From Colwellia sp. (lineage in GTDB: Bacteria; Pseudomonadota; Gammaproteobacteria; Enterobacterales; Alteromonadaceae), in the NCBI GenBank assembly GCA_013215385.1, contig JABSOY010000009.1:186001-250000 (forward strand): DNA of 64,000 nt. Reading direction: 5' to 3'. The notes beneath the pieces are model-generated. The model was not told where the DNA came from. It was given only the letters and a program-made list of their open reading frames with translations, and did not search any database. How positions within the stretch are numbered: the stretch's first letter is position 1; every line of letters begins with the position of its first letter. Shown here in pieces: positions 20,413-43,119 of the stretch. The position numbers were made by a program, and so were the translations under genes.

Positions 20413-21366
20413 TTAATTAGGTAAAAACTCAATCGCCCAAATGGTGATCATTACCGCTACGGCTTCTTCAGGGAAGCGTATCGAGCGTAATATCACCTTT
20501 AACTGTCGTTCTAATTTTGCATTATTAAGGCCACTTGATTTGATGTCGACTCGGCTAACCGTGCCGTTAGGCTGAATTTCTATTTCAAACATAACCTTGC
20601 CTTTTAAAAAAGGGTCTTTTCTTAAGGCGCGATTATAAAGGGTATAAAGGCGAGATTTATTGGCTTCAAGTGTTCTGCGTAGACTAATTTCGGTGCGTTG
20701 CCCTGCTTGTGCAGATAACGCTGCTTCTTCGGCCATAGCTCCTTCAGTCGCTAAGACTTCTTCTTCAGCAAGGCGTATATGTTGGGTATTTTTAGAAGAT
20801 AGCGCGTCACTAGTAACCGTTCGACTGACTGATGAAGCGGTTAATCCATCACTTTGTTTATTGACAGCACCCGCTAACAGTTTACGTTTAACTTTAACTT
20901 CTTCAGCTGTATTTTGATTAAGTTTAGTTTTTGCTGCGGGTATTACATCAAAGGCTGCTCGCATTGAAAACAGTTCGTCTTTCATTGCTGCTAGGCCAGA
21001 CGTTTTAGCTTTTGTTCTTGCCGCTTCACGAGTCATTTTTGGCTGTTCAACCAGTTTTTCAGCTGGCTCCTCTTTAGGCTCTTCTTTGATTTTTTCAGGT
21101 TCAATTATTTCTGGTTCTTCTATCTTTTCTGGCAAAGCTAGCTGTTTTTCTTGCAATATAATTTTGGCAAGTTGTACCGGTACCTGCTCTTTTACTGCAC
21201 GAGGAACTTTGACTTGTTCTAACAAAGGCACACCAAGAGCAAAAACTAAATAAACCACCAGCAATATCGATAATATTCGTAGAAATATCTTATCTTGTTG
21301 GCTCGATATAAATAAGTCGCTTTGCGCTTGAAAACCTGTATTCATATTCAAGGTTGCTGTGGTCAT
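20413..21366 (-). CDS. TonB-like / AgmX-PglI C-terminal domain energy-transducer protein
   Basis: From the ATG at 21366 (with GAGGGT before it) the product has 317 residues; a GTG 12 bp earlier is possible. It has one membrane helix (about 31-51), a Pro/Glu/Lys-rich periplasmic spacer (85-120, repeated Glu-Pro), an alpha-helical stretch and a C-terminal TonB/AgmX-type domain with FEIEIQPNGTVSRVDIKSSG and a final EFLPN. It is the last gene of the minus-strand arm, directly after two ExbD-type genes and a TolQ/ExbB-type gene, so it should be the protein that couples that motor to an outer-membrane or periplasmic partner. Confidence 0.82.
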   Translation of the reverse strand: MTTATLNMNTGFQAQSDLFISSQQDKIFLRILSILLVVYLVFALGVPLLEQVKVPRAVKEQVPVQLAKIILQEKQLALPEKIEEPEIIEPEKIKEEPKEEPAEKLVEQPKMTREAARTKAKTSGLAAMKDELFSMRAAFDVIPAAKTKLNQNTAEEVKVKRKLLAGAVNKQSDGLTASSVSRTVTSDALSSKNTQHIRLAEEEVLATEGAMAEEAALSAQAGQRTEISLRRTLEANKSRLYTLYNRALRKDPFLKGKVMFEIEIQPNGTVSRVDIKSSGLNNAKLERQLKVILRSIRFPEEAVAVMITIWAIEFLPN

Positions 21367-21367
21367 A

Positions 21368-21898
21368 TTAACCCTCACCTTGTTTATTTTTCACTTGTCG
21401 CTCAACCGCAAGTGACATATTGCGATAACCCGTATCTGCACATGCTGCCATGATCTGTTTCAATACAACATAAGGAATTGAAGCATCTCCAATAATGGTC
21501 ACTGCGCGCCCCTTTTTTTGTTCGCTATCGGTTAACTCTGGTCGCTTGCTAACGTGATAGTTTAGTTCAGTTTTTAACGCTTCGATAAATTCGTTGTTGT
21601 CTTGCAGCGAAGCACTAATGTCATTATCGGTACTTTGCCAAATGGCTCTTTCTTGCACTAAAACGGTTTTCTCAAAAATAGTGATCACCAAGTTTTCTAC
21701 CGGTAATTGTTCAGCGATTGAGACCGGTAAATTAATTTTTTCAATGTTTTGTAATACGCGCACTTCTGATTGGTTCACTATTAGAAAGAACACTAAAATA
21801 GTAAATATATCCATCAAAGCAACAAGGTTTAGCTTACTGCCAGCGTTGAAACGTTTGTGATGTTTGGCAAGCCTCTTTAATCTTGCTGACTGTTTCAT
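21368..21898 (-). CDS. ExbD/TolR-family protein, copy 2
   Basis: The 176-residue protein has one N-terminal helix with a conserved acid at its start (LNLVALMDIFTILVFFLIVN; the Asp is the proton-pathway residue) and a periplasmic ExbD/TolR-like domain ending GDASIPYVVLKQIMAACADTG, the usual C-terminal half. Cytoplasmic N-terminus is Arg/Lys/His-rich. It overlaps the other ExbD gene by 4 bp and precedes the TonB-like gene by one base. It acts as one of two periplasmic stator arms of the TolQ-like channel. Confidence 0.9.
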   Translation of the reverse strand: MKQSARLKRLAKHHKRFNAGSKLNLVALMDIFTILVFFLIVNQSEVRVLQNIEKINLPVSIAEQLPVENLVITIFEKTVLVQERAIWQSTDNDISASLQDNNEFIEALKTELNYHVSKRPELTDSEQKKGRAVTIIGDASIPYVVLKQIMAACADTGYRNMSLAVERQVKNKQGEG

Positions 21899-22449
21899 TG
21901 TTGCTCTCCTATCGGTTCGCTACTAGACTCGTTAATAGGTTCATCTACAGGTGCATCACCTAAAGATATCAATGGAAATAACTCAGCATCGACCAAGCTG
22001 GCTGCAACCACAGCCTTAAACGAACGTACCGTATCCATAGCAGAAACAATAGTTTGATAGTCAACTGCCGGCTCCAGTAAAATGACAATGTCGTTCTTAT
22101 CTATGGTATTTTGTTGAAAGGTTAGTTTCAAATCTTGTAGATATATAGATAACGCGGCGAAGTCATAACCTTGTTCGGTTACTTCAAAACGTTTTAATAG
22201 TATTCCCGCTGGATAATTTAATTCCAAATGCTCTTTAGTAATGACCAACTCCAAAACTTTCAGTTCTTTTTGGTCTTCAGCTAATTCAGCTTCAGCAAGC
22301 ACAGGAAGTTGTAAATTAAGTATCCGTACATGAGAGAAGACTAAACTCAGCAACAATACCGGCACTAGCACAATCATCAAATTCATGAATGATGTAATAT
22401 CTAATTCCGCATCTTGGTTATTGGCGCGGCGATGACGATGGCGTCTCAT
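21895..22449 (-). CDS. ExbD/TolR-family protein, copy 1
   Basis: This 184-residue protein has a basic N-terminus (MRRHRHRR), then a single helix with the conserved Asp (AELDITSFMNLMIVLVPVLL), and a periplasmic domain with DKNDIVILLEPAVDYQTIVSAMD that matches ExbD. The C-terminus is Glu/Ser-rich. It differs considerably from copy 2, so the pair are two distinct subunits rather than a recent duplication. The ribosome binding site lies 26 bp after the TolQ-like gene. Confidence 0.9.
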   Translation of the reverse strand: MRRHRHRRANNQDAELDITSFMNLMIVLVPVLLLSLVFSHVRILNLQLPVLAEAELAEDQKELKVLELVITKEHLELNYPAGILLKRFEVTEQGYDFAALSIYLQDLKLTFQQNTIDKNDIVILLEPAVDYQTIVSAMDTVRSFKAVVAASLVDAELFPLISLGDAPVDEPINESSSEPIGEQQ

Positions 22450-22475
22450 AATAGTAACCCTCGATTTAAATCAGT

Positions 22476-23108
22476 TTACTTATTAAATGACAAAGAATTT
22501 AACAATTTAATAGCGGCCATTTCAATTGAGTCAACGATGGTAGCTGTTTTTGTTTGCAAGCTAGAATGAAACAATATCAATGGAATAGCGGTAATAAGGC
22601 CAAATGCTGTGGTATTCATTGCCACTGAAATGCTTGAAGATAACAAATTGGCTTTTTCAGCAGGATCTGCACTTGCTACAGCAGAGAATGCAGCGATAAG
22701 CCCCATAATGGTACCTAATAACCCTAATAAGGTGGCTATGTTCGCTAATGTCGCAACAAATGGCGTACGTTTTTCCAGTCGTAACATATACTCCATAATT
22801 GTTTCTTCCATGGCGTATTCGACATCTTCCCGACGTTCCGCGTTACCTAAACGTGATATACCCGATTCGAGTACATCAAACACCGGCGCTTCATTACCCG
22901 CAGCATGCTTACTAATCGCTTCAATATCACCAGATTTTAATGCATGTTGAATTAAAGAAAATGCTTTTTGATTGGTACGATGTGCCTTACTTAAATATAA
23001 CCAACGTTCAATGGTAATTGCCAAGCCGACAACTAATACCAGAGCTATCGGGTAAATAAATGAACCACCATTTTGTAAAAACGCGATAATACTGTCGATA
23101 AAACTCAT
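22476..23108 (-). CDS. MotA/TolQ/ExbB-family proton channel
   Basis: The ATG at 23108, 8 bp after AAGGAAAA, is the likely start, giving 210 residues (MSFIDSIIAFLQNGG); a frame extending to 23162 is less likely. Three membrane helices are visible, with the TolQ/ExbB core RTPFVATLANIATLLGLLGTIMGLIAAF in two segments and the conserved Ala-Thr-Ala-Gly region before the last helix. It forms the pentameric inner-membrane channel driven by the proton motive force. One TolQ-like plus two ExbD-like genes is the AglRQS composition known from Myxococcus. Confidence 0.93.
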   Translation of the reverse strand: MSFIDSIIAFLQNGGSFIYPIALVLVVGLAITIERWLYLSKAHRTNQKAFSLIQHALKSGDIEAISKHAAGNEAPVFDVLESGISRLGNAERREDVEYAMEETIMEYMLRLEKRTPFVATLANIATLLGLLGTIMGLIAAFSAVASADPAEKANLLSSSISVAMNTTAFGLITAIPLILFHSSLQTKTATIVDSIEMAAIKLLNSLSFNK

Positions 23109-23197
23109 TGGATTTTCCTTATTTCTTAAAGTTAGGATGAAATGGTTAAGCTTTTGGTTCATCCAGTAATTGTTACTATGATCTACTAGCGACCAGG

Positions 23198-23533
23198 TTA
23201 TTTATTTTTTGTCGCATTTATTGTTACTTTGTTCGTTTGTCTTAACGCAAAGTCTCTTACTTCTTTTTTAAAGACTTTTGGGTTAATCGGTTTAAATTCG
23301 GGCATGGTTAGTTGTGTTTTTTGATCTTTTATAGTGATGGGATTCACGATACCTTGCCATGGCATAATATAAAGCACCTTTGGCTGCTCTTGAGAACCGG
23401 TCACCTTGCTTTCAATGGTTAATGTTTTCTGTGGTGTTTTTACCGCAGTATCGGGCTTGGGTTTCATCTCTTCAGCGTAAGACATACTGACAACGCCCAT
23501 CAAAAAAACAGTCAATATTTTCGTAATTCTCAT
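23198..23533 (-). CDS. Small exported protein of the cluster, unknown function
   Basis: The 111-residue protein has a signal peptide (cut after MGVVSMSYA) and a short basic mature chain with KVTGSQEQPKVLYIMPWQG and NPITIKDQK. No named domain is recognised. It lies 89 bp before the TolQ-like gene and 1 bp after the TPR lipoprotein, within the same operon. It may be a small periplasmic partner of the motor. I recall comparable genes in the same position in related bacteria but cannot name the family. Confidence 0.7.
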   Translation of the reverse strand: MRITKILTVFLMGVVSMSYAEEMKPKPDTAVKTPQKTLTIESKVTGSQEQPKVLYIMPWQGIVNPITIKDQKTQLTMPEFKPINPKVFKKEVRDFALRQTNKVTINATKNK

Positions 23534-23534
23534 G

Positions 23535-24383
23535 TTAACCTTCCCCTGACTTTGTATGTTGAGCGCTTGACGATAAGTTGTTGTCAGGTTTTTCAGGTAA
23601 TACTAAGCCCGCCCTTTTAATTTTAATTTCGACGCCGGCAAGCCAACGTTGCACTTGTTGGTCGTCCGTTTGCAAGGCAAGGTATGACGAATAATACTTA
23701 TGCGCGTCAAGTAAACGGCCTCGATACAGCTCTAATAGAATGGCGAGATTAACTTGCGCTTCAGGATACTCAGGCCAAATTTCTAAGGCTTTAAGGTAGC
23801 TTTTTTCTGCTTGTTCAAAATGACCACTTAACCGCGCAAGCCTGCCCTTTATTTCATAGGCATAAGGATTGATAGGGTTAACTGCTAAGGCTTCCTTGAG
23901 CTGTTGATTGGCACGACTAAAATCTTTTTGTTGAATGGCAATTAAGGCCTTATTAACATAAGCGCCAGACAGCTGCGGCTGAGCTTTCAGCACTTGATCA
24001 AATAACAGTTCAGCTTTCAACCATTCTTTATTTGTCATTAAGGTTAATGCTTGTTGGTACTTTGCAATCACATGCGCAGGAACAGTGGCTAAGCGTGCCT
24101 GTTTTTGTTCAAGGTATCGGTTTCGCTTGCTTTGAGATGCCGCAAGCATGGCGTTTTCATCCGTTGATAATTGCGCATTCTCCGTGAATACATCAACCAA
24201 ATCAGTCAGCTCTTTGCTTAGCGATTCTGGTGTTTGCTTTTCAGATCCATGCTCATTTTCACTGGTATTCGAACACCCTTGTAGTAGCACAAGTAACAAT
24301 ACCATTATCATGCTATAAACTGACGCCGATTGAGCCTGCAATTTAAAGCCCAAACGATTAATGCATGTCGTCAATAACGTCAT
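23535..24383 (-). CDS. TPR-repeat lipoprotein
   Basis: The 282-residue product has a lipobox LLQGC after a hydrophobic segment (Cys at about 37, or shorter if M26 is the start) and tandem TPR repeats in the second half (for example SGAYVNKALIAIQQKDFSRA, PYAYEIKGRLARLSGHFEQA, PEAQVNLAILLELY). It overlaps the upstream 1052-residue gene by 26 bp. TPR lipoproteins of this type are typical of envelope-spanning machines, where they bind partner proteins on the periplasmic side; in Agl-Glt this recalls GltE/GltD-like parts. Confidence 0.82.
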   Translation of the reverse strand: MTLLTTCINRLGFKLQAQSASVYSMIMVLLLVLLQGCSNTSENEHGSEKQTPESLSKELTDLVDVFTENAQLSTDENAMLAASQSKRNRYLEQKQARLATVPAHVIAKYQQALTLMTNKEWLKAELLFDQVLKAQPQLSGAYVNKALIAIQQKDFSRANQQLKEALAVNPINPYAYEIKGRLARLSGHFEQAEKSYLKALEIWPEYPEAQVNLAILLELYRGRLLDAHKYYSSYLALQTDDQQVQRWLAGVEIKIKRAGLVLPEKPDNNLSSSAQHTKSGEG

Positions 24384-27300
24384 GAGACCGCTCCTGTTTG
24401 TTATAGAGTGCGGGGGCTATTTCAGCCAGTATTGCAAAGCTTTTTGCTACCCATTGGTCGTAGTCATTTTGCCAGGCACGTTGAGCATTACTGAGGTGAA
24501 TTTCAATCGCTTTTTCTTCAAAGGGGTAAGCCAGCTCTTCCAGTAATATTTCATATTCTTCCAACGCTAATTCAGCTAAATCTTTTGGACGTTGTGACTT
24601 GAGCACATCAACGGCTAATTGACGATACATTTCCGCTAAATTAAAGGTCGTTGGCGGCACATCTTGCGCTAGTTGAAAACTGAGCACTTGTTGATAGTAT
24701 TTTATCGCTTGTTTCATCGCTGTTTGTTTACGTTTTAAACTTTTTTGTAAAGGCACGTTTAACTTAACGTACTTAAATGTTTGTTGATGAGCTACACCTA
24801 AGCTAAAGGCTGCCGTTGACGCCAATTCAATGGCACGATGTTGAATTGTTTGTGGTGAAACTTTGCTTTGTTTTGCATGAAAACTCAAAATTTTTCGAAA
24901 CCAAAAGTAGCGTTTATTTGGCTCATTGCTTTGGCGATAAAACTCGCTCATTTTGAAACGTACTTCTTGTGCAATATTAAAAGGTTGGGGGTAAGCATGA
25001 GCATAAGTTCTAAATTCGGCTAACGCCTTAGCAGTGTTGCCCGCTTTTAAATAATAATCTGCGGCTGTGTATTGCGCCTCACGTTTAAGTTCAGCCGACT
25101 CGCTATTTGTAGCGGTGCTGCCATTGGCTAATCCGTTTTCATTGGCAACCAAAATAAGTAATTGCTCTGCCGCTAATTGCCATTGCTGTGTTGCCTCGTA
25201 TGATAAAGCTAACTTAGCCGGAATAGATGCCGTATATTCATGGCCAGGAAAATGTTTTTGTATCTGCAATAACACGTCGATGGCTTGTTGCCATAATTTG
25301 TTTGCTAGCAATAAATTGGCGGCATCAAACTCAGCGATAATTCGGTACGTTGACTCTGGAACAACTGTACCAACCCGCAGGAAATGGGCTACCGCGATTT
25401 GAGGCTGTTTCACCTTATAAGCTTGTGCTTGAAAATAGATACTTGAGGCAAGCAAGTTACGCATTTCTTGCCAAGTATTTATTTTTTTATCGGCATAATC
25501 TAGTGCTAAAAGATACGCGTCTTCTGCTGATTGATAGCGATCTTGTTCGTATAAACTGTGTGCCGTTAATTGGCTGACGATTTGAACTTGTTTTAATGCT
25601 GATGGTGATAGTGATGGTGATGGTGATGGTGATGGTGATAATTTTTTAGTCCGATATGAGGTGCTTACTGCTGAATTTTTTGCTGAATACTTTGCTGGGT
25701 TTTTAACGGTATCTGCCATTAATTGGCTCGCAGGTGGCGCAATGATACCCAGTGTAGTTAGCGTAAAATCACTCATCGTTTGTACGGTTGAAAAATCTTT
25801 TGCATCGAAAGCATACTGTACAACATGTGTTGCTAATTGCACTGAACGTTCGTCATTTGGATACTGCTCAATAAATAATTTATCTAAACGATTTCGTTCA
25901 GTAATACGCTGCTGATATAGGCTATGGTTGTCAGTATCTTTATTGGTGGGGGTAGTATTTAACAATTCACGAATTGTAAGTGTGGTCGCATAAGCTGACT
26001 TTAACTTAACAGAGTTTACATTCGGCGCGGCAAACGGCGAGTAATAAGCTATATTTTCATAACTTTCTAGCGCCTTTACATATTGTTGTGCGGCAAAGTT
26101 GGCATCCGCATAAAGATATTCATCGCTTAAAACATCTCTAGTTAATAGTTCTTTAGCATCGGGTAACTTGGCGAATGCTAAATAAGCGGCTAGCGCCGTG
26201 GCGGCCTCACTAAAGGCATTAATTCTTACTTTACCTTGAGGTTGTGCTTGAGCAAAGGCGTACACTCGACGGGCATGTTCATCACTAAATTGTAATAGGT
26301 GAGGTAATAATTCATCTTTTATTGATAATAAAGCCTTATACCAAAACGTCCCATCCAGCCCGTACTGGACAATATAATTATTTTTTAATTGATGCATCGA
26401 AGAAAACTTGCCATCACGATGATAGATATCCAATAAGGCCAATGAATATCGTGCAGACCAAATATTGTCTCGCTCTAATTCTATATATGCCTGATAGGTA
26501 TGTTCAGCATCAGATTTCAACTCTTTTTTAATTAAAAAATTGGCGAGGTTTTCAAATAAAATATGTTCGTATAAAGGTAAATATTGCGAGGAATTATTAC
26601 TTTTGACCAACTTCAGTAAAGATTGAGCTTGCGCTTGCTGACTTAAAGAAACACTCAATACTCGTTGAGTATCTATCGCCAAATTTTGATAACGATTATT
26701 CAAGGCAGTGAAAGAGAATTCATGTTGATAAGGAAGCTGTTTTTCAGCAGCAATAATGGCTTCAAATACTTTTAAAAATGCAATATCAGCGTCCGCAAAG
26801 CGATTCAATTTGAACAGTGACCAACCTGACATATAAAGACTATTAACCAAGTAATTATCATTATTAGGCGCGTTCATCACCCTATCGTAAGCATTTATTG
26901 CCGCAGAGTATGCTTGTAAATTGTAATAGATTTCGCCACGTCTAAAATTTAACTCGGCTAAATATTTAGTGGTTGGGTACTGTGTTAGTAATAGCTCTAT
27001 TTCAACTAAACTTTCATCTATTCTTCCCTGTAAATCTAGCGCCTTAGCCAGTTGATAACGAATATGCTCATTTGAATTATGTTGCGGATGGTTTTTCAGC
27101 AGGTTTTGATAACTGACCACAAGTTCGCTTAATGCTTGCTCGTCTTTTTTTAGTTGCGTTAAGGTCAGAGCTGTATCATCTGAACCATCATTGTCTGTGC
27201 CGCCAAAAGATTGATTTTCAAATACTTCAGTGTTTATTTGTACTAATCGGTATGCAACCTTAGTTTTCACTTTAGCATCAGGTTCTAAGGTCAATAGTTG

Positions 27301-27516
27301 CTGATATATCTCCGCCAGCTTTTCCGACCTTATCTCCTTCTTTTTAGTGTATTTTGCTAATTGTAGCTCAGCTTGTTGCTCGGCAAGATCAATCAAACTT
27401 GCGCGCTTGTTTTTCGCTGGCTCACTCTTGTTCTCAATAAAGGTACTCATACAACCAGAAATGATTAAACAACTAATGAATAGTGCGACAGAACGATGGA
27501 CAGGAAAAAGTGCCAT
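24358..27516 (-). CDS. Large TPR-repeat lipoprotein (about 1050 residues)
   Basis: The 1052-residue protein has a lipobox IISGC (Cys22) and tetratricopeptide-type helical pairs almost throughout, e.g. around 205-260, 620-720 and 750-830 (LAELNFRRGEIYYNLQAYSA and YKVKQPQIAVAHFLRVGTVV are clear examples). A low-complexity SPSPSP stretch lies near 630, encoded by a hexamer repeat. It overlaps the preceding 727-residue gene by one base. It is probably a periplasmic or outer-membrane scaffold of the machine; no catalytic motif is seen. Confidence 0.82.
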   Translation of the reverse strand: MALFPVHRSVALFISCLIISGCMSTFIENKSEPAKNKRASLIDLAEQQAELQLAKYTKKKEIRSEKLAEIYQQLLTLEPDAKVKTKVAYRLVQINTEVFENQSFGGTDNDGSDDTALTLTQLKKDEQALSELVVSYQNLLKNHPQHNSNEHIRYQLAKALDLQGRIDESLVEIELLLTQYPTTKYLAELNFRRGEIYYNLQAYSAAINAYDRVMNAPNNDNYLVNSLYMSGWSLFKLNRFADADIAFLKVFEAIIAAEKQLPYQHEFSFTALNNRYQNLAIDTQRVLSVSLSQQAQAQSLLKLVKSNNSSQYLPLYEHILFENLANFLIKKELKSDAEHTYQAYIELERDNIWSARYSLALLDIYHRDGKFSSMHQLKNNYIVQYGLDGTFWYKALLSIKDELLPHLLQFSDEHARRVYAFAQAQPQGKVRINAFSEAATALAAYLAFAKLPDAKELLTRDVLSDEYLYADANFAAQQYVKALESYENIAYYSPFAAPNVNSVKLKSAYATTLTIRELLNTTPTNKDTDNHSLYQQRITERNRLDKLFIEQYPNDERSVQLATHVVQYAFDAKDFSTVQTMSDFTLTTLGIIAPPASQLMADTVKNPAKYSAKNSAVSTSYRTKKLSPSPSPSPSLSPSALKQVQIVSQLTAHSLYEQDRYQSAEDAYLLALDYADKKINTWQEMRNLLASSIYFQAQAYKVKQPQIAVAHFLRVGTVVPESTYRIIAEFDAANLLLANKLWQQAIDVLLQIQKHFPGHEYTASIPAKLALSYEATQQWQLAAEQLLILVANENGLANGSTATNSESAELKREAQYTAADYYLKAGNTAKALAEFRTYAHAYPQPFNIAQEVRFKMSEFYRQSNEPNKRYFWFRKILSFHAKQSKVSPQTIQHRAIELASTAAFSLGVAHQQTFKYVKLNVPLQKSLKRKQTAMKQAIKYYQQVLSFQLAQDVPPTTFNLAEMYRQLAVDVLKSQRPKDLAELALEEYEILLEELAYPFEEKAIEIHLSNAQRAWQNDYDQWVAKSFAILAEIAPALYNKQERSHDVIDDMH
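25601..25640. repeat. GGTGAT-type hexamer repeat encoding a Ser-Pro tract
   Basis: About six imperfect 6-base units in tandem encode SPSPSPSPSLSPS in the large TPR lipoprotein. In-frame copy changes would vary linker length only. Confidence 0.8.
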
Positions 27517-29699
27517 TAAAACCCTTCCTTATGATTCAAGTCAGGAGAAGAATTAGACTGGGTGTTATCTTGTTCAGGTTCGTTAAAGTTAATATTTTGT
27601 GCTTTGGTGTGCTTTTTAGCTGGCAGTAACTGTCTTTCAACTCGTTTATCATATTTTGCCATACGTTCTAAAACAGCAGCCATTTCATGTCGAGCAGTTA
27701 ATAAATGCTGTGCTAATATACCGCGTTGCTTATCGACAAATTGTTGAACTTTATCTGCTATTTTAACGCTAGTCATTACCCTTAACTCAGCGGTACTCTT
27801 TAACAGCGTTTTTATCTCCGTTGCACTTGTTGTAATACGGCCAGCCAAATCTGACAGCAATGATGCTGAGTCTGCAAGGATCACAAAGCGCTTTCTTTGC
27901 TGCTCGGCATGTACTAAAAGTTGCTCAATTTCTTTGAGCTGTTTTTTATGCTGCCATAAACGCTCCGGAAGTTCTTGCTGTAGCTGCCAGTTCAATACAG
28001 CTTCAACACGCTTTACTCTTTTTTTATACTCTTCTACATTTTTGTTGCCATCAAGAAAAGTAATCACTTGCTTACTTTGTTTGATACGCGCTAACCATTG
28101 TTCTTGTCTTTGATTTGCAAAAGCATAACCTAGTTTCTCTACCTCAGCTTTAGTGATAATTTTAGCAAGCTGTTGTTTTTTTGCGTTCAGCTCAGTAATA
28201 ATAGAACGATAATGACCTTGTTGTTGCAGCTCAAAAACCTTAGCTTTTCTGGTGCTATTTAATGCCAGCGTATCTTGCAACCATAGGTTTTTTTGTTGCT
28301 GTGTTTGCAAGTGCGCAGTGATTGAATCTAATTCAATCAGTACTTGGTAATCTGCCTTTAATTCGTTATCTAATAGCGCTTTTTGTAACCAAACCGAGTC
28401 CGTAACATAGCTTTTTTGGCTAACGAAAGGCATAGGCAACTCATTGGCGACTACTGTTTCAGGCTTTGACATTGCCACGCTTTTTTTGCCTGGCGCAAAA
28501 CTTAACAAATTATCACTAGCCAAAAAATCTTCCTGAAAATAAGCTAACTCTGCTAAGCGTTGTTGATATAGCCGCTCGGCATTTTGGTAACTGGTCATAC
28601 CCTCTTCTAGCGACATTTGTTCTGCAACTTGTGTGGCAAGTAACAATGCGGCTTGCCAACCTAAATTAGAATACGGGAAGCGTTCTTTCATTAAATTAAA
28701 GAGCTTAAACGACAGGGTATTTTGTTTTATTTTTTGCGCCGAGAAAGCAAAAATAAACAGTGCTGACTCGCTATAAGGACTATCTTGAGGAAAGTTTTTT
28801 AATTCGTAATAAGCCGCTTCATAATTTTCTTGTTTAACATACAGTTGAGCCAACAATAATTGTGCGTAATCATTTACCGCTTGTTGCTGGTTTTTTTCAT
28901 CATTAACTTTCTCGCTAAAACCACCTTCATTATCAGTCGAAAAAGGGCTGAAAAGTAACTGCCAGAAGGTCTTAGATGGTGGTTGCCAAAAAGTATTTTT
29001 AATCTTAGTTAGTAGCGGCTTAGCAAGTTCAAACTCAGCTCGTTCCATATGTAATAAGGCTTGATTCAATTCGATATAAGCAACCGTAATTGATTGTTTA
29101 TTTAAGCCTTCGTCTACATTGTCTTCTGGTTGAACGGCAGAATAAACCGGTAACTCAGGCCAATAAGCGAGCTGATTAAGAATTTGATATTGGTCACTAT
29201 AAGCGTTCGACACTTGGCTGATTTTACTCAGTGTCGCTCTTGCTGTTTTATTGTCACCTTGCTCAATTTGTTGCTCAGCTAATTGTAATAAGGCGATTAA
29301 GGTTAATTCAGCCGGTGATGTATTAGACTTCGACTCTTGTGTATTATCCACCTTAGAAGCAACATCATCAGCGCCTACTTGTTCTCTTTGTAAATGATAA
29401 AGTGATTGCCTTGCTTGATGATGCAAACCCACAGTCACTTGCAAGCCGGCTTCAAACAGACGACTTTGTGATGATTGGCTATTAAAACGCTGACGATTCA
29501 AACTGATTTGGTTAAGCGCTGCGCCGTAATTACCGGTAAAATAAAAATATAAGGCCTGTCGGTATAGTTTATCTTCGAGCTGTGGACTTGCCTCAACAAC
29601 CTCTGCCGATGTTGGCATAACGGTTGTTAAAATCATCATGCCACTGAGCAACGTGACCTTGACGATTTGTTTAAAAAACGAAGCTAGGTTAAAGCGCAT
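27516..29699 (-). CDS. Exported TPR / coiled-coil protein (727 residues)
   Basis: The protein has a signal peptide (ends near TVMPTSA) and TPR-like helices in residues 45-380 (YFYFTGNYGAALNQI, then paired Ala/Gln-rich helices), followed by a long Gln/Lys/Leu-rich helical region (about 450-680) that should form a coiled coil. No catalytic motif is seen. It is one base from the large TPR lipoprotein and 6 bp after the 194-residue gene. It is likely a periplasmic scaffold bridging the motor to outer-membrane parts, as AglT/GltC-like proteins do in gliding machinery. That comparison is inference. Confidence 0.75.
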   Translation of the reverse strand: MRFNLASFFKQIVKVTLLSGMMILTTVMPTSAEVVEASPQLEDKLYRQALYFYFTGNYGAALNQISLNRQRFNSQSSQSRLFEAGLQVTVGLHHQARQSLYHLQREQVGADDVASKVDNTQESKSNTSPAELTLIALLQLAEQQIEQGDNKTARATLSKISQVSNAYSDQYQILNQLAYWPELPVYSAVQPEDNVDEGLNKQSITVAYIELNQALLHMERAEFELAKPLLTKIKNTFWQPPSKTFWQLLFSPFSTDNEGGFSEKVNDEKNQQQAVNDYAQLLLAQLYVKQENYEAAYYELKNFPQDSPYSESALFIFAFSAQKIKQNTLSFKLFNLMKERFPYSNLGWQAALLLATQVAEQMSLEEGMTSYQNAERLYQQRLAELAYFQEDFLASDNLLSFAPGKKSVAMSKPETVVANELPMPFVSQKSYVTDSVWLQKALLDNELKADYQVLIELDSITAHLQTQQQKNLWLQDTLALNSTRKAKVFELQQQGHYRSIITELNAKKQQLAKIITKAEVEKLGYAFANQRQEQWLARIKQSKQVITFLDGNKNVEEYKKRVKRVEAVLNWQLQQELPERLWQHKKQLKEIEQLLVHAEQQRKRFVILADSASLLSDLAGRITTSATEIKTLLKSTAELRVMTSVKIADKVQQFVDKQRGILAQHLLTARHEMAAVLERMAKYDKRVERQLLPAKKHTKAQNINFNEPEQDNTQSNSSPDLNHKEGF

Positions 29700-29705: not shown

Positions 29706-30290
29706 TTATAAAATCCATTGTTCAACGCTAATATTAGCGCGATAATTTGATTCATTATCTTCGACTTTTAATTCAATCATCACCACGTCATCATCCTTTT
29801 CGAACTGATGAGTGATAGCTTTTTGCGTGGTTCTCCCTTCACCATCAAGCCCGGTAAATATAGCGGTAAGTTGATGTTTACCCACTTTTAAATTTCCTAA
29901 ATAAACCCGTTGAATTCCTCCTTGTTCAAGCGACTTACGTTGCCGTTCGGTATAGAGAAAACCGGCAACATCTTTGTTATTAATTTTTAGCTCTACGCTG
30001 TCAACTTTAAAAAAACGACCGACGTCTACCGAAACGAAAACAGCAATTTGGGTGCTGGCAGGAAATAATAAGTCTTCTTCCAAAATGAACAAATCTCGAT
30101 TTAACTGCAATACTTGCTTTTTTATATCTTCAAGCGCTGTTGATAACTTGCCATTTGTTGCCGAAGAATCCACTGTGACTGCATAACTTTTTACAGCAAC
30201 AGCTAAAGATAAAATCAACATGCTAACAGCAATCAGCAACGCTTTATTTAAGCGTGTAACACTAGGAGAAGATAAAACATTCATGTTCAT
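29706..30290 (-). CDS. Exported protein with coiled coil and beta-sandwich domain
   Basis: The 194-residue product has a signal peptide (cut near VKSYA), a short helix (residues 45-72, LSTALEDIKKQVLQLNRDL) and a beta-sandwich with repeating strands such as VDSVELKINNKDVAGFLYT and LKVGKHQLTAIFTG, the second of PEGA or AT-rich carbohydrate-binding type. No family is recognised. It lies 49 bp after the DUF3570 gene and 6 bp before the TPR gene. Confidence 0.72.
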   Translation of the reverse strand: MNMNVLSSPSVTRLNKALLIAVSMLILSLAVAVKSYAVTVDSSATNGKLSTALEDIKKQVLQLNRDLFILEEDLLFPASTQIAVFVSVDVGRFFKVDSVELKINNKDVAGFLYTERQRKSLEQGGIQRVYLGNLKVGKHQLTAIFTGLDGEGRTTQKAITHQFEKDDDVVMIELKVEDNESNYRANISVEQWIL

Positions 30291-30339: not shown

Positions 30340-31500
30340 TTAAAAGTAAAGGCTATAAAAAGCACGAATTACGTTCGCTGAAAAACCATATAAAGACTCA
30401 TTACCTACGCCACCTTCAGCCATCGGGTTTCTGAAATTATTGTAGTTAAAATCAATATAATCCCATTGTAACGAAGCTTCAGAGCGCGAACTGCCGAACG
30501 ACAAACTATGGGGCAATGAATACGTGACTCCAATGCCAATGGTCATATTGTCGAAGTCGCTCAGTTCTTTGTCTCGGGCGAGATAGTTTTGTGCGTTTTT
30601 ATAGGGAAATAAGTCGCTATAAAACTTCGCTTCGCTTTGTTGATAATAACGTAGCTTTAGTTCTACTTCGAAGGATTCACCAATGGGGTGGCGATAACTT
30701 AACTCAACATCGTTAGATTTTATTTCCCAACTATCGCTAAAATAGCGATAGTGAAAAAATAACGCGGCTCGATAAGGGAGGTAATAACTGGCCGATATTT
30801 TAGTGGCAAATGAGTTACGTGTTTCGGGGTATATTTCCGATTGATAACCCACTCCTGAAGGGATTGAATTGTCGATGTAGCGCACCGTACGATAAGGGTT
30901 ATTAAGGTATCCCTCGTCAGCAACTGCTTCAAAAGTCAAACTGGCGGTTAAATTACGGGTTAATATTTGATTAATACCTGCACGTAACCGGTATTGCTCG
31001 CTTTCTTCTTCAAAGCTCTCGTCGCCATTACGTTTAATTTCATTATCACCATATGAAAACCCCATGCTTAGGTTGGTTAAATCACCAAACATGTCTTGCG
31101 AGACATTGATACTTAACGATTGGGCAAAATAGTCATCTTCATCACTTTGGCGCAGATTAAGCGACATAATGGTTTTGTCATGTAAGTATTCAATGCCTAG
31201 CTGCCCTTCATTACGTTCTTCTGTGTAGGCACTGGCGGTACTTAATACGTCAACCGAAGCCGATGAAATAGTGTCTAAATAATAATAGGCGGTAACCACC
31301 ACAGACTCTGTCGCCTTTTTTCTCAACAGAATTGCTGGTCCGTCTATTTTCATGCCGCCACCTTCGTAGCTGTGATAAAGCACATCTAAACGTTCGGCGC
31401 CTAAAACCGCCGCTTGGCTTAAGCTAGCACTTAAAGCAAAATTAATGACCAGGCTAAAGGTAACAACAAATTTTAGTGCGGATAAAAAGCGTAATTTCAC
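30340..31500 (-). CDS. DUF3570 outer-membrane beta-barrel protein
   Basis: The start at 31500 (GTG, VKLRFLSALKF) gives a clean signal peptide and avoids overlapping the DUF4266 gene; an upstream start at 31563 would overlap it by 44 bp. The mature protein (from about AAVLGAERLDVLYHSY) shows alternating beta strands, including LSMGFSYGDNEIKR and VELSYRHPIGESFEVELKLRYYQQ in parts, and the final strand NVIRAFYSLYF with aromatic C-terminus, an outer-membrane barrel signature. DUF3570 proteins accompany DUF4266, thioredoxin-family and ApbE genes in several bacteria as I remember; their function is unknown. Early GGGMKIDGPAIL is a conserved loop. Confidence 0.85.
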   Translation of the reverse strand: MKLRFLSALKFVVTFSLVINFALSASLSQAAVLGAERLDVLYHSYEGGGMKIDGPAILLRKKATESVVVTAYYYLDTISSASVDVLSTASAYTEERNEGQLGIEYLHDKTIMSLNLRQSDEDDYFAQSLSINVSQDMFGDLTNLSMGFSYGDNEIKRNGDESFEEESEQYRLRAGINQILTRNLTASLTFEAVADEGYLNNPYRTVRYIDNSIPSGVGYQSEIYPETRNSFATKISASYYLPYRAALFFHYRYFSDSWEIKSNDVELSYRHPIGESFEVELKLRYYQQSEAKFYSDLFPYKNAQNYLARDKELSDFDNMTIGIGVTYSLPHSLSFGSSRSEASLQWDYIDFNYNNFRNPMAEGGVGNESLYGFSANVIRAFYSLYF

Positions 31501-31519
31501 TCGCAGCAGACTCTTGAAT

Positions 31520-32336: not shown

Positions 32337-33008
32337 TTAAAAATAAATTGAGACCCCGGTAACAAAGTTAAGATTATGTGTTGTTTTAGACTCACCGGTA
32401 ACTTGGGTATCAAAAATATAGTCACTCATGCCGATATCCCATGCCACCCAGTCATTAATAAACACTCGGTAATTGGCGGTAACATTAACGGTAAATTGTT
32501 CATCGCCGGCAAATTCAGTGCTACCAGCACCTAGCTCTATTGAAAAGATGCTATTAAATACTAAATCTTTACTAAAAAAGATTTCACCCGGCAGCAGGTT
32601 ATAACCAATATTTAAACCGTAATACGTTAGCTCTCGCTGTTCATCAGTTAACAAGGGTGCTGAGTTCACCAGTTTTTCGAAGCTAGTTTCGCCACCTTTT
32701 GCTTGGCCATAACGCGCTTTTAGGTAGAAATTTTCAGTAATATGGTAGCCAATATGCGCTGCTAGCCAACCACTACTTTCAAAATCTTCTATTGAAATAA
32801 TACCGCCTTGTATGCCGACTTCAAAATTTTCAGAATCAAGTAAGTCGTCGAAAATTTGGCGTCGTTCAACATCAGCTTTCACTTGTATTTGTGCATTATT
32901 ATCTTGCTCTGCAGCATTTGTTAAAGATGAGAACGATAAAGCAGCGAGTAATAATGTACTTGCGCTGATAAATGGCGTTAAAAAAATACGCTGAAACCTA
33001 TTTTCCAT
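32337..33008 (-). CDS. Outer-membrane beta-barrel protein (OMP_myx_plus-like), copy 2
   Basis: The 223-residue protein has a signal peptide (LSFSSLTNAA), a short linker, and a small beta-barrel of about eight strands ending in FVTGVSIYF, with the terminal aromatic signature. It has the layout of the small outer-membrane barrels found with AgmX-type proteins in myxobacteria and some Gammaproteobacteria (there GltA/GltB). Its ATG lies inside the end of the preceding barrel gene, overlapping by 31 bp. The two barrels in tandem are likely paralogues. Confidence 0.8.
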   Translation of the reverse strand: MENRFQRIFLTPFISASTLLLAALSFSSLTNAAEQDNNAQIQVKADVERRQIFDDLLDSENFEVGIQGGIISIEDFESSGWLAAHIGYHITENFYLKARYGQAKGGETSFEKLVNSAPLLTDEQRELTYYGLNIGYNLLPGEIFFSKDLVFNSIFSIELGAGSTEFAGDEQFTVNVTANYRVFINDWVAWDIGMSDYIFDTQVTGESKTTHNLNFVTGVSIYF

Positions 33009-33724
33009 GTGTGAATCTCTTCATTAGTGTCTCGGTCAGTTAATGCTAACGAGAGCTTATATTCTGCTCGTAATAAAAAGTTACGAGCAATGTGATATTT
33101 AATGCCTGCGGCGGCACTCATTAAGGTACTTTGTCGCTTTTTTGCATCGGCTAAAACGCTGTGAGGTTTAGTATCAATAAAGCCGCCACCAATACCTATG
33201 TAAGGGATTACTGTCCATTCAGGCATAGGTTGACTGATCAGCATAACTTCATACAGATTACTGTCAGAAATATTGCCTAACGCTTTACCGATTGATACTT
33301 CTGCACTAAATACCGATGTAAAGGCATAACCAAGATGAACGTTATAAAAGTTAGCGCCTGCTAAATCACCATACATAACGCCACCTTCAACATCACGACT
33401 CTGAAAGCTTTTTTGAAAATTATCGTCTTGATTTATCGCTTTTCCATACTGGCTTAGACCCAATAAATCATCCTGATGAAGCCAGCCTTCGATACCACGT
33501 TTATCTTTTACCTTCAGCCAAGATGTGCGTTTAACAAGCACGATAACGTCTTCATTTTTTTCGATAATATGAACTACCGGATAACCGGCACTTGGACCCG
33601 AATGCAGTTCAACAAAAGGTACTTCAATATGTAAGGTAATAGCTTGAGCGGAATCAGCTAATAACCTTGGGCTGGTTAAAATAATAACCAGTGACAAAAG
33701 TATTTTTGCAAGCGTATTAAACAT
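32978..33724 (-). CDS. Outer-membrane beta-barrel with N-terminal SH3 domain, copy 1
   Basis: The 248-residue protein has a signal peptide (cut near RLLADSAQA), a bacterial SH3 domain (about 30-88, with VELHSGPSAGYPVVHIIEKN and SWLKVKDKRGIEGWLH) and a C-terminal barrel ending GFSVFF. SH3 domains of this type bind peptidoglycan or cell-wall peptides, so it could tie the outer membrane to the wall. It precedes the second barrel with a 31-bp overlap and follows the HzsA-like gene by 27 bp. Confidence 0.82.
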   Translation of the reverse strand: MFNTLAKILLSLVIILTSPRLLADSAQAITLHIEVPFVELHSGPSAGYPVVHIIEKNEDVIVLVKRTSWLKVKDKRGIEGWLHQDDLLGLSQYGKAINQDDNFQKSFQSRDVEGGVMYGDLAGANFYNVHLGYAFTSVFSAEVSIGKALGNISDSNLYEVMLISQPMPEWTVIPYIGIGGGFIDTKPHSVLADAKKRQSTLMSAAAGIKYHIARNFLLRAEYKLSLALTDRDTNEEIHTWKIGFSVFF

Positions 33725-33751: not shown

Positions 33752-36433
33752 CTAATCCTGTGAATAAAACGGTGTGTTGTAATATTGACCACCAATATCT
33801 AACCATTCACTCAATAATTTTAGTTCATCGTCTGTCATGGTATTTTGATGGATAACATTATTGATAACTTCAAAGAAACGTCCGCTTGCCGCAGCGCTAT
33901 TTGTTGATAGTATTGGCTGTATCGTCACGGTTGTTAATACAGGAATAGCATTACCTTCTGCATCTAAAACAAGCTCACCTTCATTATCAATTTCAAAAAC
34001 GATATTAGCGTTTTCATCCAGTACCGGTATTAATCGATCAATTAAAATACCCTCAATGGTTTCTTGTTCAACATCATTAAAAAACAGCTCGCGATAACTC
34101 GTTAAGTGGGCAATTTGATCACTCGATGGTCTCGCGGATAAATCTAATTGCCCAGCAGGCACTTGTGCAAAACCATCACTATCAGCAATGCTGTGGCAGC
34201 TGGTGCATGTTTTGTTGTCAAAAATTTCAGGTGTTTCGGCGGCTGCAAATTCACGAGGTACATCCCATAACGGCTGAATATGCTCTTGGTAATTGATTTG
34301 AATGCGGCAATATGGTGTCCAGTTTTCAAAACATGCAACGCCATTTGGCGGTACTGTCGACAGATTTTCATAGGAATAATCTATGCTTGGGTTAACCACT
34401 GAAATGTCTGGATTTGTCCAGCGGTCTTGATAAAGAATGCTGGCGGTAAGTTGCGCTAAGCCATTAACCATTTCATCAGCTTCAGCCATGGTTTGCCCTT
34501 GCATCGGGATAATGTCTTGGGTAGCATTGGTATAAGCTGTACCGCCAATTGCGCCGCTATTAATACTTGCCGGTTGAGCATCAATTCTGCCGTGTGGCTG
34601 TTCGCTATTTGCTGTATGGCAGCCATTACACTGTAATACTTCTCCGGGTTTTAAAGTAATCCACTGGCGATGTCGACCATTAATACGTTGGCCATTCTCA
34701 TCTAAGACACTGATAGCAAAAGGCGTGTTTGCCGGTACTTTAACTTTCACCGAACCGTCAGGTTGAATAGGCGTATAGCCCATGATTTCTCGCATTAATT
34801 GATTATTACTGCGACCAAAATCGGTATTAGCAATATCTCTTACTTCATCTGGTGGCATGGGAACACCACGAATTATTCGTAAAAAGCGTGCGGGTAGATT
34901 AACTGCAGGAGTTAGCGATGGATCACTTAAACGAGCGATCCCTTGTGGGTTATTATTTTGCACCGTGACATCTATGCCATCAAAATCATAAACGCTACGA
35001 ATATGAATAGCTGCGGAAAGTTCAGCACTTAATTCAGCATCGAGTTCATTACCAATGACCTTGTCAGCAATAAAGTTTTTTCCTTGCTCGGACGGTCTCA
35101 TCACCAGCGCTTCGGTAATTATGCTACCAGCTTGTGTTGTGGCGACAAGTTGCTGGGTATTATCGGCATTATTCAATAACCATAACTCAAACAATGGCTC
35201 AGCCAATTCGAGTGTTTCATCAGCTAGCTGCTCTGCACTTAATTGACCACATGCTCTGATCACGTCATCAACGACAACACGACAAATATCCCAACTCATT
35301 AAATAACGCTTACTATTGTCAGGTAACGGGTAAAGATAATTTAGTCGCCCCGATGCAGAAAAGTCTGATGAGAAGGTAAAATTCAAACTATCGCTCAAGG
35401 CTAAGTCTGTCACTGCGTTTACTTGAGCGCCTGATGCTATAGTCGCTTGTTCGTTATCAATGTAGTCATTAATGTTGATCAGCACCGGTCTTTTTTGATA
35501 AGCCGTTTCATCCTGCGAACCAAGTAAAATTAAAATATCGCCATTGGCCATTTGCTGCGGTTTAATAAATTCGACCCGTTCGTTTTGCTCATCAAGCATT
35601 AATTGATGTGAATGCCAACCGAAGATAAGAGTATTGTCTGTACCATCTGGATTCATGCGGTAGAGGTTAATACCGTGCTCGCCACCCATAGCATCCCAAC
35701 GGCTATACAATATTTGACCACTATGTAAAACCAAGGGGTAGAAGTCATGACTCAAATTAAAAGTAAGTTGCTCAATTGACGTGCCGTCAGCGTTCATCAC
35801 ATGAATATTGAAAGTTTCGTTATCTCGGCGCTCATCTAAAGCTGTGTATTGTGGTTTGCCCTCGTCGAGTAATATTGCCCGAGATAATCGTTGCCGTGTC
35901 GAGGCAAAAATAATACGGCCATCTGGTAAAAAAGACGCCATTAAATCGTCACCTTGCTCGGCAACTGTGTCACTACTAATAATGCGTGCTAAGTTTTGTG
36001 TCGATGTTTGATAACGCCAGATATTCCATCGAGGCTGGCCTTCCTCGTTAGCATCGGCTAATTCAGGTGCTCTAATTGAAAAAAGCATGGTTTGACCATC
36101 ATCAGATACGCTGAGATCTCGAATATCAATAAGCTGGTCTTCGCCAAATAATAACGCGGTTAAGTTAGTAATGGGTGAGTCGGCAAAGGCATTTCTTTTG
36201 ATTAATAAGCTAGCCCCAGGATTAAAGGTAGCTGGGTCGCGCGCATCAAAACGTACTGGCGTTGCCTCATTTTCGTCGGTTTGCGTATCTAACGTTCGTT
36301 CGATATAGACAACGGGATATTCAACCAGAACAGGATCAGCTGTTTCGTCCTTAATTGCTGTTTCGGTATTACAAGCCGAAAGCAAAAAAATGACCGCTAA
36401 GATTACAACTTTATATCCCAACATCACCCTCAC
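33752..36433 (-). CDS. HzsA-like heme lipoprotein with beta-propeller
   Basis: The 893-residue protein has a lipobox LLSAC (Cys21), a central region with PD40/WD40-like blades (for example DLMASFLPDGRIIFASTR, YPLVLHSGQILYSRWD) and two heme-c CxxCH motifs: CNGCH (602-606) and CTSCH (743-747). The layout matches the hydrazine-synthase-alpha-like family, members of which occur far outside anammox bacteria. It is predicted to be an outer-membrane or periplasmic electron-transfer protein; no hydrazine chemistry is implied. It is the first gene of the minus-strand arm and diverges from the plus-strand arm with 250 bp between them. The ATG at 36424 is an alternative start. Confidence 0.85.
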   Translation of the reverse strand: MRVMLGYKVVILAVIFLLSACNTETAIKDETADPVLVEYPVVYIERTLDTQTDENEATPVRFDARDPATFNPGASLLIKRNAFADSPITNLTALLFGEDQLIDIRDLSVSDDGQTMLFSIRAPELADANEEGQPRWNIWRYQTSTQNLARIISSDTVAEQGDDLMASFLPDGRIIFASTRQRLSRAILLDEGKPQYTALDERRDNETFNIHVMNADGTSIEQLTFNLSHDFYPLVLHSGQILYSRWDAMGGEHGINLYRMNPDGTDNTLIFGWHSHQLMLDEQNERVEFIKPQQMANGDILILLGSQDETAYQKRPVLININDYIDNEQATIASGAQVNAVTDLALSDSLNFTFSSDFSASGRLNYLYPLPDNSKRYLMSWDICRVVVDDVIRACGQLSAEQLADETLELAEPLFELWLLNNADNTQQLVATTQAGSIITEALVMRPSEQGKNFIADKVIGNELDAELSAELSAAIHIRSVYDFDGIDVTVQNNNPQGIARLSDPSLTPAVNLPARFLRIIRGVPMPPDEVRDIANTDFGRSNNQLMREIMGYTPIQPDGSVKVKVPANTPFAISVLDENGQRINGRHRQWITLKPGEVLQCNGCHTANSEQPHGRIDAQPASINSGAIGGTAYTNATQDIIPMQGQTMAEADEMVNGLAQLTASILYQDRWTNPDISVVNPSIDYSYENLSTVPPNGVACFENWTPYCRIQINYQEHIQPLWDVPREFAAAETPEIFDNKTCTSCHSIADSDGFAQVPAGQLDLSARPSSDQIAHLTSYRELFFNDVEQETIEGILIDRLIPVLDENANIVFEIDNEGELVLDAEGNAIPVLTTVTIQPILSTNSAAASGRFFEVINNVIHQNTMTDDELKLLSEWLDIGGQYYNTPFYSQD

Positions 36434-36493
36434 TTATATCCCTTTAAAAATCATTTCAAAAAGTAACACATTTGTCAAAAAGTGTAAAATTTC

Positions 36494-37955: not shown

Positions 37956-37957
37956 AG

Positions 37958-40438: not shown

Positions 40439-40506
40439 GGGAGCCAATATGTTGATACCAAATAACGCTACAAATATGTCGATAAAGTTAATAAAGGGAC
40501 AAAAAT

Positions 40507-42084: not shown

Positions 42085-42129
42085 TTGTCTAAATCTAAGC
42101 CTAAGACAAGCCCAGATTAATCACTTCGT

Positions 42130-43119
42130 TTAAAGAGATTTATTGCGTTGTAGCCCTTTTGATACATGTAAAGTTTGCTGATTATCAATAATTATGGCTT
42201 CATAGTCAGGCAGCTGTTCAATAAAAGCCATGCCCTCTTGCAAACCTTTCACAAATACCGTTGTTGATAACGCATCAACATAAGTCGAATCTTTACCAAT
42301 AATAGAGACACTGACGACCTTTCTTGCTGAGTCGCCGGTTTTAGGATTAATAATGTGATGGTAACGAACACCGTCTTCAATAAAGTAACGTTCGTAATCG
42401 CCCGATGTTGAGATGGATTCATTACTAAGCGGTAGTTTGACCGCAGTTTTTTCTTCAGCTCTCGGATGTTTAATGCCTACATACCAAGGTCGACCACGGC
42501 GATCACCCAATAAACCGGTATCACCACCGGCACTGACTAACGCATGTTTTATGCCTGCAATTTTTAATAACTCAAGACATCTCTTGACCGCATAACCTTT
42601 GGCAATGCCTCCTAAATCAATTTTTACATCTGAGTGGCTAAAACGAACGGTCGACTTTGCTCTGTCTAAAATAACCGCATGATAATCGATGGCTTTTAAT
42701 GCACGCTCAATCGAAGCTTGACTGGGTTTTTGCTTTTTTCGATAGTCGTACTGATATCCAACCGATGCATAAGTAATATCAAACGCGCCATCACTCAGCT
42801 CAGCTATTTTTTGTGACTCATTTAATAACTCAAATAGTTCGCTAGTGATCACAACAGCTTGAGTGCCCGCTTTGCTATTCACTAAACTTAACTCACTCGT
42901 TGTTTTGTAAGGACTCATGGCTCGATCAATACGATGCATTTCCTCTTGCACTAACACAATCAACTGCTGAGAAGTGCTATTGACCTTTGCAGACTCATCT
43001 AACCAAAACTCGATATGTGCTTGGGTGCCCATGACTTTAAAATTATTACTAAACCACTCTGCAGACACAGTGTCAGTAAATAATAAAAGGATAGTGGTAA
43101 ATATTATGCGTTTTGACAT
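42130..43119 (-). CDS. apbE: FAD:protein FMN transferase (ApbE)
   Basis: The 329-residue protein has a signal peptide (ends near DTVSA) and ApbE motifs: NNFKVMGTQAHIEFW, DGAFDITYASVG, KIDLGGIAKGYAVK, HHIINPKTGDSARK and VDALSTTVFVKG, where the Asp before Ala-Leu-Ser binds Mg. ApbE moves FMN from FAD onto Ser/Thr of periplasmic proteins. It converges with the DUF1501 gene (45-bp gap) and completes the redox cluster. An ApbE with DUF3570, DUF4266 and a thioredoxin is a repeated association I recall from flavinylation surveys. Confidence 0.93.
   Translation of the reverse strand: MSKRIIFTTILLLFTDTVSAEWFSNNFKVMGTQAHIEFWLDESAKVNSTSQQLIVLVQEEMHRIDRAMSPYKTTSELSLVNSKAGTQAVVITSELFELLNESQKIAELSDGAFDITYASVGYQYDYRKKQKPSQASIERALKAIDYHAVILDRAKSTVRFSHSDVKIDLGGIAKGYAVKRCLELLKIAGIKHALVSAGGDTGLLGDRRGRPWYVGIKHPRAEEKTAVKLPLSNESISTSGDYERYFIEDGVRYHHIINPKTGDSARKVVSVSIIGKDSTYVDALSTTVFVKGLQEGMAFIEQLPDYEAIIIDNQQTLHVSKGLQRNKSL

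Follow-up and report, generated by a model that had tools for sequence, protein, structure and literature searches.

What might a motor of the Agl-Glt type do in bacteria in which its genes stand beside those of heme, thiol and flavin proteins? The question is raised by a 64,000-nucleotide stretch of a Colwellia sp. genome (assembly GCA_013215385.1, contig JABSOY010000009.1, positions 186,001 to 250,000; hereafter the window, in whose numbering all coordinates are given), where positions 20413-43119 hold 19 genes: 15 on the minus strand, three on the plus strand, and apbE. A first reading of the letters by a model, the original prediction, had described a divergent block with a 15-gene minus arm, a plus arm and apbE at its end, and all 19 genes are indeed present. 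Spacing within the minus arm ranges from a 44-base overlap (DUF4266/DUF3570, with the GTG start of the latter) to a 49-base gap. We consider it probable that the block encodes a proton-driven machine of the envelope, Glt-like in kind and adapted to an outer-membrane (OM) module that carries heme, flavin and thiol groups and probably binds carbohydrate.

Under this explanation, the motor would pull on a periplasmic scaffold, and this pull would place, cycle or drive an OM redox and carbohydrate-binding complex; the substrate of its redox chemistry would be a polymer at the surface or something else outside the cell. The OM parts joined to the motor would be two small beta-barrels, the DUF3570 barrel, and the heme and tetratricopeptide repeat (TPR) lipoproteins. 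The redox cargo would comprise hemes (on P1 and on two lipoproteins, the HzsA-like HZSA and P2), a thiol relay (TlpA and the CxC lipoprotein DUF4266) and a covalent flavin (on DUF3570, with ApbE, if the altered sites of this barrel are still used), together with P3, a twin-arginine (Tat) exported protein with a predicted phosphatase/sulfatase-like fold. The single complex, its drive by the proton motive force (PMF), its surface location and its substrate are all what we infer from these genes.

Gene content, conservation and signal types are direct observations. We favour the explanation because the minus arm is kept in 33 of 33 relatives and the P1-P2-P3 triad in 32 of 33, because the parts recur in several arrangements and co-occur in 38 of 39 genomes, and because a core of the same composition has been published. 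Further support comes from motor-less clusters in which a heme lipoprotein again goes with a Tat DUF1501 protein, TlpA, DUF3570 and ApbE, from the structure of DUF3570, modelled with confidence as a barrel whose acceptor-like serines share one loop, from a membrane aspartate that is near-invariant in both ExbD-type subunits, and from the LamG domain of P2; elsewhere, PSCyt genes are linked with LamG and sulfatase genes (PMC5615132).

Conservation and co-occurrence of the block

A DUF3570 search of 147 genomes of the family separated three kinds of protein by score, namely canonical (~420-590 bits), class c (169-213 bits, nine loci) and a divergent, cluster-type kind (88-139 bits), the last comprising the window and 33 relatives from 18 genera. 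All 33 neighbourhoods were taken, up to 15 kb a side. Wherever the genes were detected, a single 15-gene order was found in 33/33: AGMX-ExbD-ExbD-TolQ-SMEX-TPRc-TPRb-TPRa-BSAN-DUF3570-DUF4266-TlpA-BARL-SH3B-HZSA, with TPRa undetected in two relatives, TPRc in two and SMEX in three. The triad P1-P2-P3 accompanied this arm in 32 relatives, the remaining one (G031) stopping at a contig edge, and in two genomes (G063 and G126) it followed AGMX on the same strand, as in loci of the Rheinheimera/Arsukibacterium type.

When named genomes were scanned beyond the family, relatives of P3 turned up at no fewer than 547 loci, of which the best 80 were kept, a selection that consequently favours close relatives. 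All 80 are presumably gammaproteobacterial, judging by name. Among these best 80, 78 encode all of P1, P2 and P3, and 79 have adjoining arm or core genes, the sole locus without them being a 3.7-kb contig. Their arrangement varies: HZSA and P1 are divergent in 61, P1 follows AGMX on one strand in 16, and the core comes after P3 in seven (five of them among the 61). Class-level loci add further arrangements, with apbE between P3 and BSAN or P1 divergent from BSAN. P3 was present in 44/394 genomes of the order and 50/369 of the class, and BSAN in 83/369 of the class; in a phylum sample, P3 (7/349) and BSAN (12/349) were matched within the class only, the share of other classes in the 349 not being shown. 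In the class sample, 38 of the 39 genomes with a system-type P3 (≥680 bits) also had a high-scoring BSAN (>180 bits), compared to 55/369 overall (hypergeometric 3e-37, with cut-offs chosen after the contexts had been seen and kinship uncorrected).

The motor and envelope core

As in the Agl-Glt/Nfs core, the block has one TolQ/AglR-type and two tandem ExbD-type genes by Pfam and NCBIfam. The TolQ/ExbB/AglR-type proton-channel subunit (22476-23162, minus strand; PF01618, MotA_ExbB, 2e-28) has TolQ as its closest relative among Protein Data Bank (PDB) sequences (4e-9) and lies below both NCBIfam equivalog cut-offs (tolQ 67.7 vs 221 bits, exbB 44.8 vs 206 bits). It is followed by ExbD/TolR-type subunits 1 (21895-22449, minus; PF02472 2e-8) and 2 (21368-21898, minus; PF02472 2e-13), each with a near-invariant membrane aspartate (Asp17 and Asp30, respectively). 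These aspartates, and the Thr residues of TolQ, would correspond to the proton path of E. coli ExbBD. The arm ends with AGMX (20413-21378, minus), which exceeds the cut-off of the AgmX/PglI (GltG/GltJ) C-terminal domain (NF033768, 60.1 vs 40 bits) and has no relative among PDB sequences. In the suggested profile comparison, which here covered GltG, GltJ and GltE, this C-terminal domain was recognised, and the equivalog cut-offs of GltG (37.7 of 650 bits), GltJ (25.3 of 450) and GltE (28.8 of 225) were not reached.

Three TPR proteins of 727, 1052 and 282 aa lie in one region and keep their order in relatives: the exported TPRa (27516-29699, minus; ANAPC3/TPR 2e-6) and the lipoproteins TPRb (24358-27516, minus; TPR_6 3e-9) and TPRc (23535-24383, minus; TPR_16 6e-12), which are GltC-, GltD- and GltE-like by architecture. 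Counting orthologs longer than 80% of the window protein, with identical ones dropped (as for all lipobox and C-terminal counts below), a lipobox was seen in 44/63 TPRb and 30/39 TPRc. The small exported protein SMEX (23198-23533, minus; 30/33 relatives) lies between TPRc and TolQ. The exported protein BSAN (29706-30290, minus; 33/33 relatives), used here as the core marker, has no significant Pfam, NCBIfam or PDB-sequence relative, and a comparison with P3 gave no match. Two small OM beta-barrels stand in tandem, SH3B (32978-33724, minus; SH3_3 7e-8, OMP_b-brl 1e-7), which also carries an SH3 domain, and BARL (32337-33008, minus; TIGR04565 2e-47). A C-terminal F is present in 84/89 and 91/91 orthologs, respectively. 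Against the OMP_myx_plus model (TIGR04565, cut-off 60), BARL scored 161 bits and SH3B, below the cut-off, 27 bits.

The likeness to Nfs and to Agl-Glt, the machine by which myxobacteria glide, seen in the original prediction, stands with respect to one TolQ, two ExbD, an AgmX-type (or TonB-type) C-terminal protein, three TPR proteins and tandem small barrels. Luciano et al. 2011 (PMC3169522) described a core complex of GltC/D/E/G and AglR/Q/S, of unknown function, whose genes cluster in Gammaproteobacteria together with an additional one; the block shares this composition in one region, extra gene included, and the word cytochrome does not occur in the main text of that paper. Wartel et al. 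2013 (PMC3858216) portrayed the core as a stand-alone basal transport machine whose function is perhaps set by its cargo. The tandem barrels recall GltB and GltA, described as paralogous OM barrels that interact with GltC in Myxococcus (PMC4488436). Unlike Agl-Glt, however, the block has no GltI-sized protein, its AGMX shows no FHA domain and has half the length of GltG, and, unlike both Agl-Glt and Nfs, its core is joined to heme, flavin, thiol and Tat proteins.

The same subunits belong to the proton-channel families of Tol-Pal and Ton, and together with the TonB-like AgmX C-terminus they resemble parts of a Ton system. The motor could then energise metal import through DUF3570 or the two small barrels, the heme and flavin proteins acting as reductants of the metal. 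The iron transporter VIT1 reported in 25 published DUF3570-type clusters (PMC8238504) would fit such uptake, yet we regard it as improbable: the 19 genes include neither a plug-domain receptor nor an inner-membrane transporter, and the best Fur-like site between the arms was no better than in shuffles (61 loci). The block also departs from Tol-Pal and Ton in its scores below the equivalog cut-offs, its two ExbD and the absence of TolA, Pal or a receptor among the 19 genes.

Heme, thiol and flavin proteins of the minus arm

HZSA (33752-36433, minus) combines a PD40 propeller repeat, an HZS_alpha middle domain (PF18582 1e-17, only ~90 residues) and two CxxCH motifs, which are kept in 33/33 family relatives; a lipobox is found in 81/89 orthologs. 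These features are shared with the hydrazine synthase alpha subunit, whose structure (5c2v) HZSA matches at 2e-9 across 62 residues. The lipoprotein signal sets it apart, as does its score of 51 bits against a cut-off of 800 (NF052339), and hydrazine synthesis was rejected because only the ~90-residue domain matches. Many HZS_alpha-domain proteins are without known function (PMC12758564).

The thiol proteins are a TlpA/ResA-type thioredoxin (31784-32287, minus; PF00578 7e-31), with a WASWCxPC motif near-invariant among relatives, and the DUF4266 lipoprotein (31520-31756, minus, GTG start; PF14086 6e-12, with the N-terminus of the query typed by hand). The latter ends in GGGCGCN, with the tail CGCN in 33/33 family relatives. 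The divergent DUF3570 gene (30340-31563, minus, GTG start; PF12094 2.5e-43) overlaps that of DUF4266 at 31520-31563 in a different frame, so that the apparent Val-rich N-terminus of the long DUF3570 reading frame comes from the codons of the Gly-Cys tail of DUF4266, translated in another frame. Given this overlap, the true DUF3570 start is probably downstream of the GTG.

AlphaFold2 (AF2) modelled DUF3570 as a 16-strand OM beta-barrel (pLDDT 82.5, pTM 0.76); this barrel, like the phosphatase-type fold of P3, is a structure prediction. Foldseek matched the model to 441 PDB chains at E ≤ 1e-3, and the 50 shown were OM barrels by title. In the model, the acceptor-like Ser103 and Ser111 lie in or at loop 102-112, after an odd strand, and the Ala-Ser pairs 102-103 and 110-111 are invariant in 25/25 aligned sequences. 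A strict [ST]GA[ST] motif was found once in 22 and not at all in 12 of 34 proteins (the window and 33 family relatives), and among ten further DUF3570 that lacked the search pattern and were inspected individually, six of the eight of type B have one SGAS. ApbE is reported to flavinylate DUF3570 in clusters with thioredoxin and DUF4266 (PMC8238504); the block has all four gene types, including the DUF4266 CxC tail, and differs from these clusters in its divergent DUF3570 and its attached motor and heme lipoproteins.

The plus-arm triad and apbE

The two CxxCH proteins announced for the plus arm are P1 and P2, with one and two motifs, respectively, constant in 32/32 family relatives. P1 (36684-37955, plus strand) is an exported, DUF1585/DUF1588-like one-heme protein whose orthologs match PSD2 (8/9, best 4e-5) and PSCyt3 (7/9, best 0.03), the window copy alone reaching E 0.19. 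P2 (37940-40438, plus) is a lipoprotein (lipobox in 110/112 orthologs) with a LamG (ConA-like) domain (PF13385, Laminin_G_3, 4e-21). P3 (40507-42084, plus) had been labelled DUF1501, a name that Pfam does not support, PF07394 not being matched. Its structure model has an alkaline-phosphatase-type fold, phosphatase- or sulfatase-like, and this fold and a weak hhalign match (E 0.006, probability 6%) suggest that it may perhaps be remote kin of DUF1501. Lastly, apbE (42130-43119, minus; PF02424 6e-81) encodes an FAD:protein FMN transferase.

These proteins bear on a more specific form of the favoured explanation, in which a Glt/Nfs-like transporter moves or assembles a surface polysaccharide, and the heme, flavin and P3 enzymes oxidise, cross-link, desulfate or dephosphorylate it. 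We see this as a serious possibility, with somewhat less than an even chance. It is suggested by LamG in P2 and CBM60 in motor-less relatives, by the modelled sulfatase/phosphatase-type fold of P3, by the proximity of PSCyt genes to those for LamG proteins and sulfatases in Verrucomicrobia (PMC5615132), and by the reported interaction of Agl-Glt and Nfs with slime and spore-coat polymer (PMC3858216), and is countered by the content of the block, as none of the 19 genes encodes a glycosyltransferase or a polymer exporter; in the flanks, the Pfam scan covered ten genes.

Modular assembly and evidence against a single machine

Several observations weigh against one dedicated machine. The window DUF3570 has neither strict ApbE motif (SSAS and STAS instead), and no cluster-type DUF3570 has two, unlike those of PMC8238504: of 93 distinct proteins, 39 have a single motif and the other 54 lack it. 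The likeness to Agl-Glt is one of composition, architecture and position. None of four congeners sampled has a cluster-type DUF3570, and the block is therefore patchily present. In the family, apbE was seen beside the block in just 13 of 33 relatives (at least 13, since stretches reached 15 kb a side), and in 47 of the 80 named loci. The one genome that departs from the co-occurrence, G541, carries a broken HzsA-like gene, and BSAN was not matched anywhere in it.

The modules also occur apart. Nine loci run HZSA-SH3B-BARL-TlpA-DUF4266-DUF3570-core and lack a triad within the 20 kb read; HZSA has three CxxCH in eight of them, and apbE lies alongside in seven. Twelve bare cores of eight or nine genes (L297-L303, L306-L308, L313, L315) are without redox genes, and in the ten examined further the neighbours resemble housekeeping genes. 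Lone divergent P1-P2-P3 triads were found in seven loci. In one genome (G1030; L309, L310), the core with apbE lies ~110 kb from HZSA-DUF3570 with P1-P3, the only split full system seen. Arm genes with no HZSA found make up four further loci (G524, G542, G684, G790), and in G1020 (L312) the core stands beside SH3B, BARL and a weak HzsA-like match, with no DUF3570 in 20 kb, possibly a further kind of cargo. In a tree built from TPRb, TolQ and both ExbD (24 chosen type-A loci plus the window, eight type-B with L295 and L296 omitted, 12 bare cores and three others; 6-7 of the 48 rows lacking TolQ/ExbD), full, core+arm and bare loci group with their like (7 label changes vs 17.6 in shuffles). None of the three forms a single clade, however, and under midpoint rooting, the root being unknown, most bare cores lie among the others.

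Conversely, the redox set exists alone. Class-c DUF3570 loci of the family (seven of nine fetched, five opened) showed no core genes and no HzsA-like protein in searches, and in three of the five opened the genes for a heme lipoprotein and a Tat DUF1501 protein stand with those for TlpA, ApbE and a DUF3570 with two SGAS (L098:551-7422, L104:595-6093, L108:862-8459), with DUF4266 in two of the three. Both heme lipoproteins scanned exceed the PSCyt3 and CBM60 cut-offs, and all three Tat proteins scanned exceed that of DUF1501. These clusters thus resemble the block in their heme lipoprotein, Tat protein, and thiol and flavin set, and differ in having no core motor or HzsA-like protein found, two SGAS and a true DUF1501. 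The motor would accordingly be an added or separable module, and bare cores, core+arm loci, the split genome and motor-less redox sets together argue for modular assembly.

The claim that the block is one functional unit consequently holds in part: conserved synteny, co-occurrence and same-strand loci speak for it, and the separation of its modules in related genomes, named in the original prediction as grounds for abandoning it, is partly observed. Likewise, the proposed neighbourhood comparison found the arm order and triad conserved in the family, and also bare, triad-less, split and motor-less loci. Could the block then be a set of neighbours with no joint function, two or three operons that are unrelated to one another and co-transferred between genomes? 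The separate modules and patchy presence would suit this, but the set stayed together through several rearrangements in most loci read, and the 38/39 co-occurrence extends to genomes where contigs part the genes; we judge this alternative highly unlikely.

The missing motifs bear most directly on flavin. As both strict ApbE motifs are missing from the window DUF3570 while both Ala-Ser pairs remain, its flavinylation, judged from sequence, is uncertain. This weakens the notion of electron export, in which hemes, the DUF3570 barrel (with flavin) and heme lipoproteins would form a conduit that takes electrons from thiols in the periplasm and hands them to an acceptor outside the cell, while the motor gates or positions this conduit. 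Three redox cofactor types with ApbE nearby, OM lipoprotein signals, and a predicted OM barrel with flavin-acceptor-like serines at the loop after an odd strand would all be expected of such a route. Nevertheless, the block has no multiheme conduit of the Mtr kind (five CxxCH in total, in three proteins) and no quinol oxidase among its 19 genes, and bare cores exist without the redox set, which leaves electron export doubtful.

Novelty and implications

In many genera, a core with the composition of Agl-Glt goes together with a single, defined cargo set, which includes a lectin domain and a flavin transferase besides hemes and thiols. A search of open-licence PubMed Central papers found no report of a motor joined to such a redox module, and ExbB and DUF1501 do not appear in the main text of PMC8238504; within the literature searched, the union of motor and heme/flavin/thiol module is new as a combination. 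For an orphan machine, this yields a role open to experiment in culturable and partly manipulable genera (Shewanella, Alteromonas, Rheinheimera), and the DUF3570 family gains a predicted OM barrel structure and a possible physical partner. A bolder reading, which we think unlikely, is that the Glt-type motor mechanically moves or gates an OM heme-flavin assembly, with flavin in an outward loop of the 16-strand barrel, so that PMF would pay for redox work at the OM or outside it. If true, this would define a class of proton-driven surface machine with an electron-carrying complex as cargo.

Genomic surroundings

The Colwellia sp. genome has one copy of the core, four apbE and two DUF3570. Elsewhere, the neighbours of one bare core (L307) resemble pnp-rpsO-truB-rbfA-infB by eye. 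In G541 (L256-L257), a system-type P1-P2-P3 stands beside a two-piece HzsA-like gene with no core gene in 40 kb, reflecting either decay or a sequencing error. In the window, the block is directly adjoined by a CreBCD-like set (16310-20311, plus) of a response regulator, a sensor kinase and CreD (PF06123 7e-139), followed by a VanZ-like gene. Past the block (43843-46357, plus) lie genes for a regulator of the GntR type, a protein of 283 aa that matches no Pfam family, and a diguanylate cyclase of the MASE6-GGDEF type.

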